A DNA stretch of 64,000 nucleotides from Caulobacter sp. (GTDB lineage Bacteria > Pseudomonadota > Alphaproteobacteria > Caulobacterales > Caulobacteraceae): contig JAUXVF010000028.1 in assembly GCA_030680355.1 (NCBI GenBank), positions 62,001 to 126,000 on the forward strand, in the 5' to 3' direction. Position numbers and translations under genes: made by a program. This document shows positions 31,293 to 57,333 of this stretch, piece after piece. The notes beneath the pieces were generated by a model. The model was given only the letters and a program-made list of their open reading frames with translations, made no database searches and was not told the DNA's origin. Positions within the stretch are counted from its first letter, which is position 1; the number at the start of each line of letters is the position of its first letter.

Positions 31293-31429
31293 CCGCTCAT
31301 CCTCGCGAAAGCGAGGACCCAGGTGTTTTTGACGCAGCGGCTCACCTTTCGGGTTGAGCGATGCCATGCTTGAACCGTGAGCCGAAGCTCTGAAAAAGCC
31401 TGGGTCCTCGCTTTCGCGAGGATGAGCGG
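31293..31429. repeat. REP doublet, family 1 (short non-coding element)
   Basis: A 137 bp element bounded by inverted copies of a 31 bp unit (31293-31323 and 31399-31429) starting CCGCTCATCC and ending CCCAGG. Each unit folds as CCTCGC-GAAA-GCGAGG. The inner arms differ: one continues TGTTTTTGA, the other CTTTTTCAG, and both contain CGGCTCAC. It lies between sufS and sufD and has no ORF. The same termini bound the elements at 42812-42919 and 56827-57333. Confidence 0.9.
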
Positions 31430-42811: not shown

Positions 42812-42919
42812 CCGCTCATCCCCGCGAAAGCGGGGACCCAGGCTTTTTCAGGGACAGCCACCCGGCGTGAGCGGCGAGATCAAAAACACCTGGGTCCCCG
42901 CTTTCGTGGGGATGAGCGG
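42812..42919. repeat. REP doublet, family 1 (second short element)
   Basis: A 108 bp element with the same 31 bp termini as the one at 31293-31429 (units 42812-42842 and 42889-42919). Here the left unit reads CCCCGC-GAAA-GCGGGG, a compensated version of CCTCGC/GCGAGG. The inner arms CTTTTTCAG and TGTTTTTGA are the same two as at 31.3 kb but in opposite order, so the element is inserted in the reverse orientation. It ends 19 bp before the bcp start. Confidence 0.9.
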
Positions 42920-55655: not shown

Positions 55656-55674
55656 CTACGGCGTGGCAGTAGTC

Positions 55675-55959
55675 ATGCGCGATGACCAATTCGAATGGGA
55701 CGATGCAAAGGCCGCCGCGAACATCACGCGGCACCGTGTTCCATTTGACGCCGCGCGAGACGCCTTCGACGATCCGTTCGCGATCGGCTGGCTGGATGAT
55801 CGCGAGCGCTACGGCGAAACCCGGTGCGTCACACTGGGCATGGCGGAAGGCCGACTGCTCAGTGTCGTCCATACGATGAGGGATACCCGGATCCGCATCA
55901 TTTCAGCGCGAGGCGCGAACCCTCGGGAACGCCGCCTCTATCATGAGCAGGGAGACTGA
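55675..55959 (+). CDS. brnT: BrnT family toxin
   Basis: 94 residues from the ATG at 55675 (a GTG four codons earlier is possible). DQFEWDDAKAAANITRHRVPFDAARDAF is the BrnT N-terminus, and RIRIISARGANPRERRLYHEQ closes the RelE-like ribonuclease fold with its basic residues. The expected action is mRNA cleavage that halts growth. It overlaps the antitoxin gene by 17 bp. Confidence 0.85.
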   Translation: MRDDQFEWDDAKAAANITRHRVPFDAARDAFDDPFAIGWLDDRERYGETRCVTLGMAEGRLLSVVHTMRDTRIRIISARGANPRERRLYHEQGD

Positions 55960-56278
55960 TGTGTCGCGACATGACTGGACCCGCTTTGACGCCATGACCG
56001 AAGAAGAGCGTCATGCCGCCGCCCTGGCCGATCCTGACGCCCAGCCTCTGACCGATGAGGACCTGGCGCGAATGAAGCCTGTTCCGCGCGTGAGCATCAT
56101 CCGTCGCGCGCTGCGCCTGACCCAGGAAGAATTCAGCCGGCGGTTCCGCATCCCGCTGGGCACCCTGCGGGACTGGGAACAGGGCCGCAAGGAACCGGAC
56201 GCCGCCACCCGCGCCTATCTCGTGGTCATCGCCCGCAATCCGACCGCCGTCGCCGAGGCGCTGGCCCCGGCGGCCTAA
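55943..56278 (+). CDS. HTH antitoxin partner of BrnT
   Basis: 111 residues. The N-terminal part (TEEERHAAALADPDAQPLTDEDLARMKP) resembles BrnA-type antitoxins, which bind the toxin. The C-terminal half is an XRE-like HTH: LRLTQEEFSRRFRIPLGTLRDWEQGRKEP. BrnA normally has an AT-hook-free ribbon; here the DNA-binding part is HTH. It should bind the inverted repeat upstream. The stop overlaps the convergent cox gene stop by 4 bp. Confidence 0.82.
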   Translation: MSRETDVSRHDWTRFDAMTEEERHAAALADPDAQPLTDEDLARMKPVPRVSIIRRALRLTQEEFSRRFRIPLGTLRDWEQGRKEPDAATRAYLVVIARNPTAVAEALAPAA

Positions 56279-56532: not shown

Positions 56533-56826
56533 GGCGTTCCTCCGCAAAGGACCGGCCCGCGGCTCTGGGCCGGATGACGGGCGTCAGATTACGCCGGTCG
56601 GGGGCGATGCGCCATGGCCGGGTGAAGACTCCCGGGACCGATCATTGCGGGACATCGCGGGACATTTGGGGACTCTGGCGGAGAGGATCTGACCGTCGGC
56701 CCGTATTGGCCGGGCACGCAGCCGCGCCATCGGAGGGTCACATTCGGATATCGAACCAACGAGGGCTTTCGACCCGTTGCGGACATAAGCCGCTGACGGG
56801 CTGGTGACCTTAAATCTCCATTTTCC
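56533..56826. other. Gene-free region left of the GIY-YIG element
   Basis: 294 bp without a supported gene. It contains direct repeats of GCGGGACAT and a degenerate GTTGCGGACAT-type segment that recurs as GTCCGCAAG...TTGCGG at about 57371-57391, on the other side of the element. It looks like accumulated repeat debris. Confidence 0.5.
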
Positions 56827-57333
56827 CCGCTCATCCTCGCGGAAGCGAGGACCCAGGTTTACGGCCGGCGCACGCACTTCAGGGGATGTCGGGCGCTCAG
56901 CAAATCTCCGGATACAGGTCCCGCCATCGGGGATTAGTCTTCTCGATCAGTTCGATCTTCCAAGCCCGCCTCCAGACCTTCATCTGCCGCTCGCGGCGGA
57001 AGGCGTCGTCACGGGTGTCGAAAGCCTCATACCAGACCAGCCTCTTTACGCCGTAGCGGCTGGTGAACCCCGGCGTTAGCCCTTCGCGATGCTCGCCGAC
57101 CCGGCGTACGAGGCTGTCGGTCGAGCCGATGTAGAGCGTCCCGTTCCGCTGGCTCGCGAGGATGTAGACGTAGAAGGCCATGTGAACTTGGCGCGAGCTG
57201 TTCATTTATTGCTCGCATATAGGGAAAATTCTGATCCATCAATTCATAGCAGCGGTTTGATCGGAGCCAGACATCCTTTGAAGTGAGTGCACCGGCCGTA
57301 AACCTGGGTCCTCGCTTCCGCGAGGATGAGCGG
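56827..57333. mobile_element. GIY-YIG element with 67 bp terminal inverted repeats
   Basis: 507 bp. Left arm 56827-56893 and right arm 57267-57333 are inverted repeats identical at 62 of 67 positions, the outer 42 perfectly. The outer 31 bp is the same REP unit that ends the elements at 31.3 and 42.8 kb, with hairpin CCTCGC-GGAA-GCGAGG. The only gene inside is a GIY-YIG endonuclease whose stop is 3 bp from the left arm. No target-site duplication is evident. No transposase or RAYT is present. Confidence 0.75.
56897..57205 (-). CDS. GIY-YIG endonuclease (COG2827/UPF0213-like)
   Basis: 102 residues from ATG 57205, or 94 from ATG 57181. The GIY-YIG core is FYVYILASQRNGTLYIGST, with the catalytic Arg in LVRRVGEHREG, Glu in FRRERQMKVWRRAWK and a C-terminal Asn (EKTNPRW). 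All the usual catalytic positions are present. Such single-domain nucleases have no fused DNA-binding domain. Enclosed by 67 bp inverted repeats, it is the only candidate to act on the REP hairpins. Confidence 0.92.
   Translation of the reverse strand: MNSSRQVHMAFYVYILASQRNGTLYIGSTDSLVRRVGEHREGLTPGFTSRYGVKRLVWYEAFDTRDDAFRRERQMKVWRRAWKIELIEKTNPRWRDLYPEIC

Follow-up and report, generated by a model that had tools for sequence, protein, structure and literature searches.

Structure of the element

The window, a 64,000-nucleotide stretch of Caulobacter sp. DNA, contains a unit of 507 bases in which a single nuclease gene is bounded by inverted repeats (Table 1). The two arms are identical at 62 of 67 positions; the outer 42 are matched perfectly, and mismatches are found only at positions 43, 48, 56, 57, and 65. 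When the weaker inner match is included, the inverted repeat stretches to 78 nt, with 69 of the 78 matching. Its score of 111 was compared against 2000 random placements in the window, which had a mean of 23. Only 12 of these placements scored at least 36, and the top one, also at 111, must overlap the element itself.

Table 1. Features of the element and of related units. Positions are those of the window, except in the last row, which refers to locus L324.
Feature	Position	Strand	Basis
Whole element, inverted-repeat-bounded unit with a single nuclease gene	56827..57333	.	Repeat comparison and second genomic copy
Left terminal inverted repeat, 67 bp; weaker match on to 56904	56827..56893	+	
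Right terminal inverted repeat, 67 bp; weaker match from 57256	57267..57333	-	
Left REP unit, CGTC-like; head CCGCTCAT outward, tail CCCAGG inward	56827..56857	+	
Left REP hairpin, 7-bp stem and 4-nt loop	56834-56851	+	
Right REP unit, same sequence as left REP, head outward	57303..57333	-	
GIY-YIG nuclease ORF, single-domain, 102 aa	56897..57205	-	ORF list and Pfam
Gene-less REP pair, 137-bp REPIN, candidate non-autonomous copy	31293..31429	.	
Gene-less REP pair, 108-bp REPIN, candidate non-autonomous copy	42812..42919	.	
Element inserted between sufB and sufC, suf operon of A. lipoferum 4B	L324 2358-2974		

The outer 31 bp of each arm is a REP hairpin, and as single-stranded DNA it is predicted to form a stem with a 4-nt loop. 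A 28-mer of this REP occurs five times in the window (allowing up to three mismatches), compared with a mean of 0.00 in shuffled sequences. These sites are the two ends of the element, the two arms of the 137-bp gene-less pair, and one arm of the 108-bp pair, whose second arm is visible only with a degenerate REP pattern. A 138-nt stretch with the 137-bp pair folds into a long hairpin (z = −14.8 relative to shuffles). The initial annotation of the segment, a single-domain GIY-YIG nuclease between inverted repeats whose REP hairpin recurs elsewhere in the window, is thus borne out by the matched arms, the Pfam assignment given below, and the two gene-less pairs. Its description of the nuclease as the only ORF requires qualification: the nuclease is the sole gene that was assigned, but other ORFs of at least 60 aa overlap the segment mechanically, and the family scan of the segment covered the 102-aa ORF and not these others.

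Two neighboring features were also observed. At 56766-56826 the element adjoins an intergenic repeat, GGTCACCAGCCCGTCAGCGG, that is likewise adjoined by its near-twin elsewhere in the genome (L167) and is perhaps a preferred target. At 55663-56278 on the + strand, a BrnT-type toxin gene (Pfam E = 2.3e-26) is followed by a small helix-turn-helix protein, probably forming a BrnTA toxin-antitoxin pair.

The nuclease

The nuclease matches the Pfam GIY-YIG domain over residues 11-84 (E = 2.8e-16), only one such domain was matched, and no NCBIfam family scored above its cut-off. Its conserved residues are VYI (13-15), YIG (25-27), R35, H39, E72, and N91. The catalytic Y14, Y25, R35, and E72 are invariant in an alignment of 43 sequences, in which conservation is inflated because the rows came via six query peptides. 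Most of the displayed homolog rows begin at or after Met9 (57181), so the first eight residues are possibly untranslated; judging from these rows, Met9 is probably the start in this family.

The predicted structure model is confident (pLDDT 93.4). By sequence as well as by fold, the best solved match is 1zg2 (UPF0213), followed by Slx1 and by UPF0213 again, and only the first match of the fold search has E below 0.001. The related solved structures are 1zg2 and 1ywl for UPF0213 and 6seh for Slx1. As far as the titles of PDB entries indicate, Slx1 processes branched DNA. Stand-alone prokaryotic GIY-YIG proteins, UPF0213 structures included, are classed as Slx1-like in the accessible part of a phylogenomic survey (PMC1564403), in which the term "palindrom" does not occur. 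Among 36 pairs of nine nuclease copies, dN/dS ranged from 0.08 to 0.34 with a median of 0.155; copies L176 and L178 were left out (motif not found). By the measure of these ratios, the nuclease gene is under purifying selection.

Copies in the same genome

The genome that contains the window (3.35 Mb, 90.9% complete) holds five copies of the nuclease, four of which lie inside inverted pairs of the window REP. These four are the window copy, its near-twin, a copy with an extra REP inside, and a copy in decay, which is interrupted by an in-frame stop and bounded by a REP variant differing at one base. The remaining copy is 57% identical and adjoins a different REP pair. The window copy and its twin (L166/L167) are 91.8% identical over 583 aligned bases, comprising the element and the short neighboring repeat, and these and other common-ended copies occupy unrelated loci. 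The degenerate REP pattern was matched 24 times in the genome (up to three mismatches) versus 0 times for a reversed-pattern control, and at least five gene-less inverted REP pairs were found.

Enclosure among relatives

Within the genus, a nuclease match was detected in 66 of 75 genomes, with up to 15 matches per genome, and some copies carry in-frame stops. Twenty copies from six genomes were examined, and strong inverted repeats surround 18 of the 19 that are testable (L185 was not), with the outermost REP heads directed outward as read from the printed arms. When a gene-sized gap was slid through the same 8-kb loci as a control, only 3 of 600 placements passed. The aligned arms vary from 36 to 138 nt across the genus set, the length of 67 bp being peculiar to the clade of the window. 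Two designs recur: the gene lies within one REP pair, or a complete REP pair lies on either side of it. Solo REP pairs were also collected from one genome (G004); the 20 pairs measure 114-131 bp from TCAT to ATGA, and nearly all have the ends CCGCTCATCC...GGATGAGCGG, three with a base change there. An example of the REP sequence of another clade is CGTCATTCCCGCGAAAGCGGGAATCCAG.

In a sample of 200 Pseudomonadota genomes, drawn evenly from the phylum, a nuclease match was found in 80 genomes, 48 of them at 40 bits or more by hand count. All 60 listed matches of at least 72 bits outside the genome of the window were taken as close relatives, and 40 matches of at most 38 bits, assumed to be other small GIY-YIG proteins, as the distant set; matches between 38 and 72 bits were left out of this flank test, and L262 was excluded at a contig edge. 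Strong inverted repeats, defined by a score of at least 36, flank 41 of the 59 testable close relatives, whereas only 1 of the 40 distant proteins has them, and the flank controls gave 1/116 and 0/78. The remaining 18 of the 59 lack a strong inverted repeat at this cut-off; at a looser score of at least 30, the enclosed relatives number 45. Some scoring arms are repeats other than CGTC-like REPs (e.g., L273). A stricter finder of CGTC-like units placed them on both sides of 25/59 close relatives versus 0/40 distant proteins, and on neither side of 19/59. The outermost CGTC-like units have their heads outward in 27 of 32 cases upstream and in 28 of 33 downstream.

Among the best 80 of 249 matches in the genome_contigs collection, 53 of 78 testable relatives are enclosed (L061, at a contig end, and L126, with a run of N, were left out), and 4 of 202 controls passed. 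Ten testable contigs of this best-80 set are titled outside Pseudomonadota or as "Deltaproteobacteria," and six of them pass: one each from Chloroflexota, Omnitrophota, Ignavibacteriota, and Moraniibacteriota, and two deltaproteobacterial, although some MAG contigs may be mis-binned. The plasmid collection contains 36 records with a match, and 11 of the 12 examined pass, one of them only just; some of these plasmid records are in fact whole chromosomes, and they include two pairs of close relatives. No inverted repeat was found around the R. tumorigenes plasmid copy (L162). Phage records gave only two weak partial matches to the nuclease. An 80-row protein tree has too few columns and therefore cannot prove transfer between phyla. 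The copy on a short Lentisphaeria MAG contig (L070), perhaps mis-binned, groups closely with one from Afipia.

REPs are numerous in some of these genomes, and intergenic genes in REP-rich genomes could often come to lie between REPs by chance and repeat density alone. At the scale tested, this explanation can be almost entirely set aside given how rarely the same-locus and flank controls pass and given the single enclosed gene among the distant GIY-YIG proteins, some of which come from the same genomes. On the evidence of the flanking sequences, the REP link is specific to one nuclease subfamily.

Co-divergence of nuclease and REP

The similarity of the flanking arms rises with that of the nucleases (Mantel rho = 0.47 over 103 loci, null maximum 0.16). 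In 18 of 28 cases from multi-copy genomes, the arm of a copy resembles that of its nearest nuclease relative in another genome more closely than those of its less related sister copies (Wilcoxon P = 0.002). Rows with identical protein were merged for the within-genome contrast, and seven more near-identical rows were dropped from the Mantel set; related copies are not independent in these two tests or in the flank test. As estimated from these similarities, nuclease and REP sequences co-diverge.

Y1 transposases and REP richness

No match to Y1_Tnp, the RAYT type, was found in the 90.9% complete genome of the window, which agrees with the absence of a RAYT noted initially. Within the genus, Y1_Tnp matches occur in 22 of 75 genomes. 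Twenty Y1 genes of the 33 listed were examined with the same pattern as 20 GIY-YIG genes: none of the former has a CGTC-type REP within 2.6 kb, versus 16 of the latter. Instead, 18 of the 20 Y1 loci (L351-L370) have inverted repeats of their own with other sequences, often starting GGGGACA, which were scored in wider flanks than those of the nuclease and without a control.

The association of either gene with REP richness is weak in the genus. The nuclease is found in 34 of 35 REP-rich and 32 of 40 REP-poor genomes, and Y1 in 15/35 and 7/40 (Fisher's exact test, P = 0.03 and 0.02, respectively), with rho values of 0.35 for the nuclease versus 0.29 for Y1_Tnp. The REP pattern behind the richness counts covers only part of the REP types. 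In the phylum sample, with one REP pattern only, 11 of 48 genomes with the nuclease are REP-rich versus 8 of 152 without it (P = 9e-4). REP-rich genomes without a detected nuclease are G012 in the genus and these 8 of the 19 in the phylum sample. Presence in the phylum sample was scored at a cut-off of 40 bits that we chose ourselves, and two of the eight genomes have weaker or fragmentary matches. A profile search of G012 and six of the eight found no nuclease, in the absence of a positive control. By these counts the phylum-wide association of nuclease and REP is real but partial, and REPs may outlive the nuclease.

The excess of Y1_Tnp in REP-rich genomes would fit RAYT-type Y1 transposases as the movers of the REPs, with the nuclease gene a passenger caught between them, and so would a gonococcal Y1 match with a dRS3 pair on one side. 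We regard this as very unlikely, since no examined Y1 locus has a CGTC-type REP nearby, Y1_Tnp is missing from the genome of the window and from 20 of the 35 REP-rich genus genomes, and enclosure is specific to one nuclease subfamily.

The gonococcal loci (L372, L380, L163) were observed in their own right. The Y1 match flanked by the dRS3 pair is the sole one in N. gonorrhoeae, and the GIY-YIG gene in the same genome lies amid 16 dRS3 cores in 6.3 kb. Later work reportedly may link gonococcal dRS3 to a RAYT.

Filled and empty sites

The clearest empty-site case is the sufB-sufC interval of Azospirillum. In A. lipoferum 4B, these two genes are 617 bp apart and are separated by a unit in which one REP pair precedes and another follows the nuclease gene. 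The corresponding gaps are 55, 87, 91, and 129 bp in four annotated Azospirillum relatives and about 32-36 bp in a fifth, unannotated record. Neither a CGTC REP nor the nuclease was found by eye in these five short gaps; the 129-bp gap does contain an inverted repeat, though of a different kind. The closest relative shares 96.6% identity with A. lipoferum 4B over the matching DNA.

Within the genus, a 572-bp element of genome G056 (L180) is absent in G007; its gene is present at the locus in G038, and G066 has 560 nt of other sequence there. A second element of G056, 372 bp in length (L179), is absent in G048. The locus of the 137-bp REPIN of the window has no REP pair in G057, G048, G051, and G054; it holds another REP type in G045 and, in G007, a gene-less element (L350) whose ends resemble by eye the arms of the window element. 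At this locus (L016, L188, L189, L190, L197, L349, L350), four genomes lack a REP pair and three others each have a different REP-type element, so that it could be either a hot spot or a site of in-place conversion. At the locus of L018, too, G045 holds another REP type.

Presence and absence of the whole unit were therefore seen at several loci, and a difference in REP type between species at one locus, which either repeated insertion or gene conversion could account for. The junctions of the empty sites are not base-exact because the intergenic DNA has diverged, and some copies are old, being common to one locus in up to four genomes. With its multiple copies, gene-less versions, and filled and empty sites, the unit looks mobile by sequence comparison.

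Several candidate empty sites were rejected. At the locus of the window, BLAST against the thiG loci of 19 relatives found no element on the orthologous side, and one relative (L149) matches 55 bases of the gene on the other side; the locus was not counted because gene order is not conserved. Among Rhizobium plasmids, the site was filled in the records with the broadest query coverage, and in the rest the similarity was confined to an IS or a single flanking gene. The second comparison of these plasmids used the best 40 of 145 records; of records H132-H139, six name flanking genes without a nuclease under the match and two are unannotated. At the locus of L175, eight relatives hold 95-237 nt of other sequence, with no nuclease-bearing unit and no clean junction, and this was not counted. 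At the locus of L179, G045 and G007 (L194 and L195) have no nuclease motif but long other sequence.

A homing process could also place the gene between REPs: the nuclease would cut gene-less REP pairs, break repair would copy the gene in through homology of the REP arms, and the REPs themselves would spread otherwise. Such a process fits the enclosure of the gene by REPs, which holds for 18 of the 19 genus copies tested. The other REP type in G045 and the gene-less, like-ended element in G007 at the REPIN locus fit in-place REP conversion, as does the other REP type at the locus of L018, and the GIY-YIG domain is a homing endonuclease fold according to the available part of the survey (PMC1564403). 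Against homing of this kind, the relatives compared have no REP pair at three orthologous empty sites, namely sufB-sufC in the five Azospirillum records, L180 in G007, and L179 in G048, and the gene-less REPIN of the window is likewise present or absent as a whole. We consider homing unlikely, though it retains some weight.

Alternatively, the nuclease could be a host-domesticated factor that uses REP hairpins, e.g., in repair or repeat trimming, and that is kept near REPs without being mobile now. The purifying selection on the gene and the copies retained at the same locus in four genomes are compatible with such a role. It is made highly improbable by the up to 15 matches per genome and the copies with in-frame stops, by presence and absence between relatives, and by the patchy occurrence in the phylum sample.

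The initial annotation inferred a small autonomous element not driven by a RAYT, an inference that the enclosed homologs and the empty sites support; its further suggestion, that the nuclease recognizes the REP hairpin, is inferred from sequence alone. Orthologs lacking the inverted repeats, or a lack of empty sites in relatives, would have refuted it. Neither was encountered: the close relatives are enclosed in 18 of 19 genus copies and 41 of 59 in the phylum sample, empty sites were found, and where several nuclease copies share one locus across species, they do so with their inverted repeats. The initially reported absence of a target duplication likewise holds over the 85 REP pairs described next.

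Sequences flanking the REP ends

No clear target duplication was detected outside the head in 85 REP pairs from the fetched loci at offsets from 0 to 17. The strong direct-repeat signals lay within the REP head, and the best further one reached a z of only 2.3 among many tests. In the same pairs, G is strongly depleted on the head strand just outside the REP heads (4-9% at positions −13 to −5), which may reflect a preferred target or belong to the end itself. Inverted matching is also elevated in the 10 nt that lie outside the heads (3.80 versus 3.16), but this excess was not accepted as evidence: it was obtained with a global shuffle across families, and the test is confounded because a like excess occurs at −30 to −21 (P = 0.007).

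A putative mobilizing enzyme for CGTC-type REPs

Comparison of the sequences shows that the unit occurs in several copies that share REP ends, is present or absent as a whole, and has gene-less versions with like ends. The reading that we favor, with a probability of roughly 0.7, is that the segment represents a single copy of a mobile element, and that the nuclease encoded by the sole gene of this element, a single-domain GIY-YIG protein of the prokaryotic Slx1-like group, is the dedicated mobilizing enzyme of CGTC-type REPs. The causal role is inferred, without activity or binding data. Mechanistically, the nuclease would recognize its own REP hairpin, extruded or single-stranded, and cut each end close to its head side. 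Once freed or copied, the unit would join a new intergenic site through host repair or replication with no evident target duplication, and bare REP pairs may be carried in trans.

A broader proposal, toward which we incline with clearly less assurance, is that these units form a new class of transposable element present in several phyla. A lone Slx1-like GIY-YIG nuclease would serve as the transposase, cutting the terminal REP hairpins (an inferred activity), and would supply the mobilizing activity that the CGTC superfamily, with dRS3 and some rickettsial repeats among its members, has so far lacked.

The mobilizing enzyme was left open in the accessible text of the paper that defined CGTC REPs (PMC3733652), and the nuclease is a strong candidate. 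Since it is a specific, purifiable candidate of 100 residues, the question of what moves these REPs is directly testable. If confirmed, GIY-YIG would join the enzyme types that drive DNA transposition, and small genes annotated as "GIY-YIG nuclease family protein" or "excinuclease ABC subunit C" that stand alone between unrelated genes would be explained. A single-domain enzyme whose inferred substrate is a hairpin of 30 nt might also serve as a compact DNA tool.

Comparison with known systems

In fold and size, the nuclease resembles the single-domain UPF0213/Slx1-like GIY-YIG proteins; it differs from the distant GIY-YIG matches of the phylum sample, which, with a single exception, lack enclosing inverted repeats. 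Free-standing GIY-YIG homing endonuclease genes, such as the seg genes of T4, are also mobile genes that encode a GIY-YIG nuclease. Unlike them, the element ends in hairpin repeats, occupies many loci per genome, and has gene-less derivatives, and unlike a homing endonuclease at a fixed cognate site, its nuclease has copies at several unrelated loci of one genome. A gene-bearing unit accompanied by short gene-less units with shared ends recalls the IS/MITE pairs of bacterial DDE transposons, but the unit contains no DDE transposase, its hairpin ends are directional with head and tail, and no target duplication was detected.

The ends resemble the CGTC-tagged REPs, having a hairpin with a CGTC-like head and a CCA-type tail. 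In the part of the defining paper that was available, these REPs "apparently lack a dedicated transposase" (Di Nocera et al. 2013, PMC3733652). They are reported there from five phyla, mostly from alphaproteobacteria, with C. crescentus, S. meliloti, Bradyrhizobium, A. lipoferum, and Neisseriae among the named carriers, and the superfamily includes Neisseria dRS3 and Rickettsia RPE-4/RPE-6. The published criteria are an unpaired CGTC, TGTC, or CCTC end, an 8-9 bp stem starting with AT pairs, a 4-5 nt loop, and a CCA tail (PMC3733652). The loop and tail of the window REP meet them, whereas its stem has 7 bp, one AT pair being lost, and its head, at the same position, is CCGCTCAT where many relatives have CGTCAT or TGTCAT. 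For a REP of the relatives' type, the predicted fold has an 8-bp stem and a 4-nt loop. What departs from the published account is the link of such ends to a nuclease: in the accessible main text of that paper, the term "GIY" does not occur and no transposase is reported. "GIY" is likewise absent from PMC12306157, PMC6006769, PMC8049555, and PMC8266576, and among the matches listed in open-access PMC full text, which covers no preprints and few subscription papers, none joins GIY-YIG and REPs by title and abstract. The link of the nuclease to CGTC REPs is thus new as far as searched.

The closest architectural parallel is the REP/RAYT system. In both, inverted REP hairpins enclose a single nuclease gene, REP doublets without a gene are presumed to be non-autonomous units, and a clear target duplication is missing. 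The element differs in its enzyme, which is GIY-YIG and not Y1-HUH, in its ends, which are CGTC-type (CCGCTCAT...CCCAGG) and not GTAG-tagged, and in its copy number, the nuclease being multicopy in some genomes with up to 15 matches. By comparison, tnpA_REP behaves like a housekeeping gene, as far as the accessible part of the source indicates (PMC8266576). Because both the enzyme and the REP tag differ, the element is REPtron-like by architecture and not a member of that group. If our broader proposal is true, the same lifestyle would have arisen twice from unrelated origins, as GTAG/RAYT and as CGTC/GIY-YIG.
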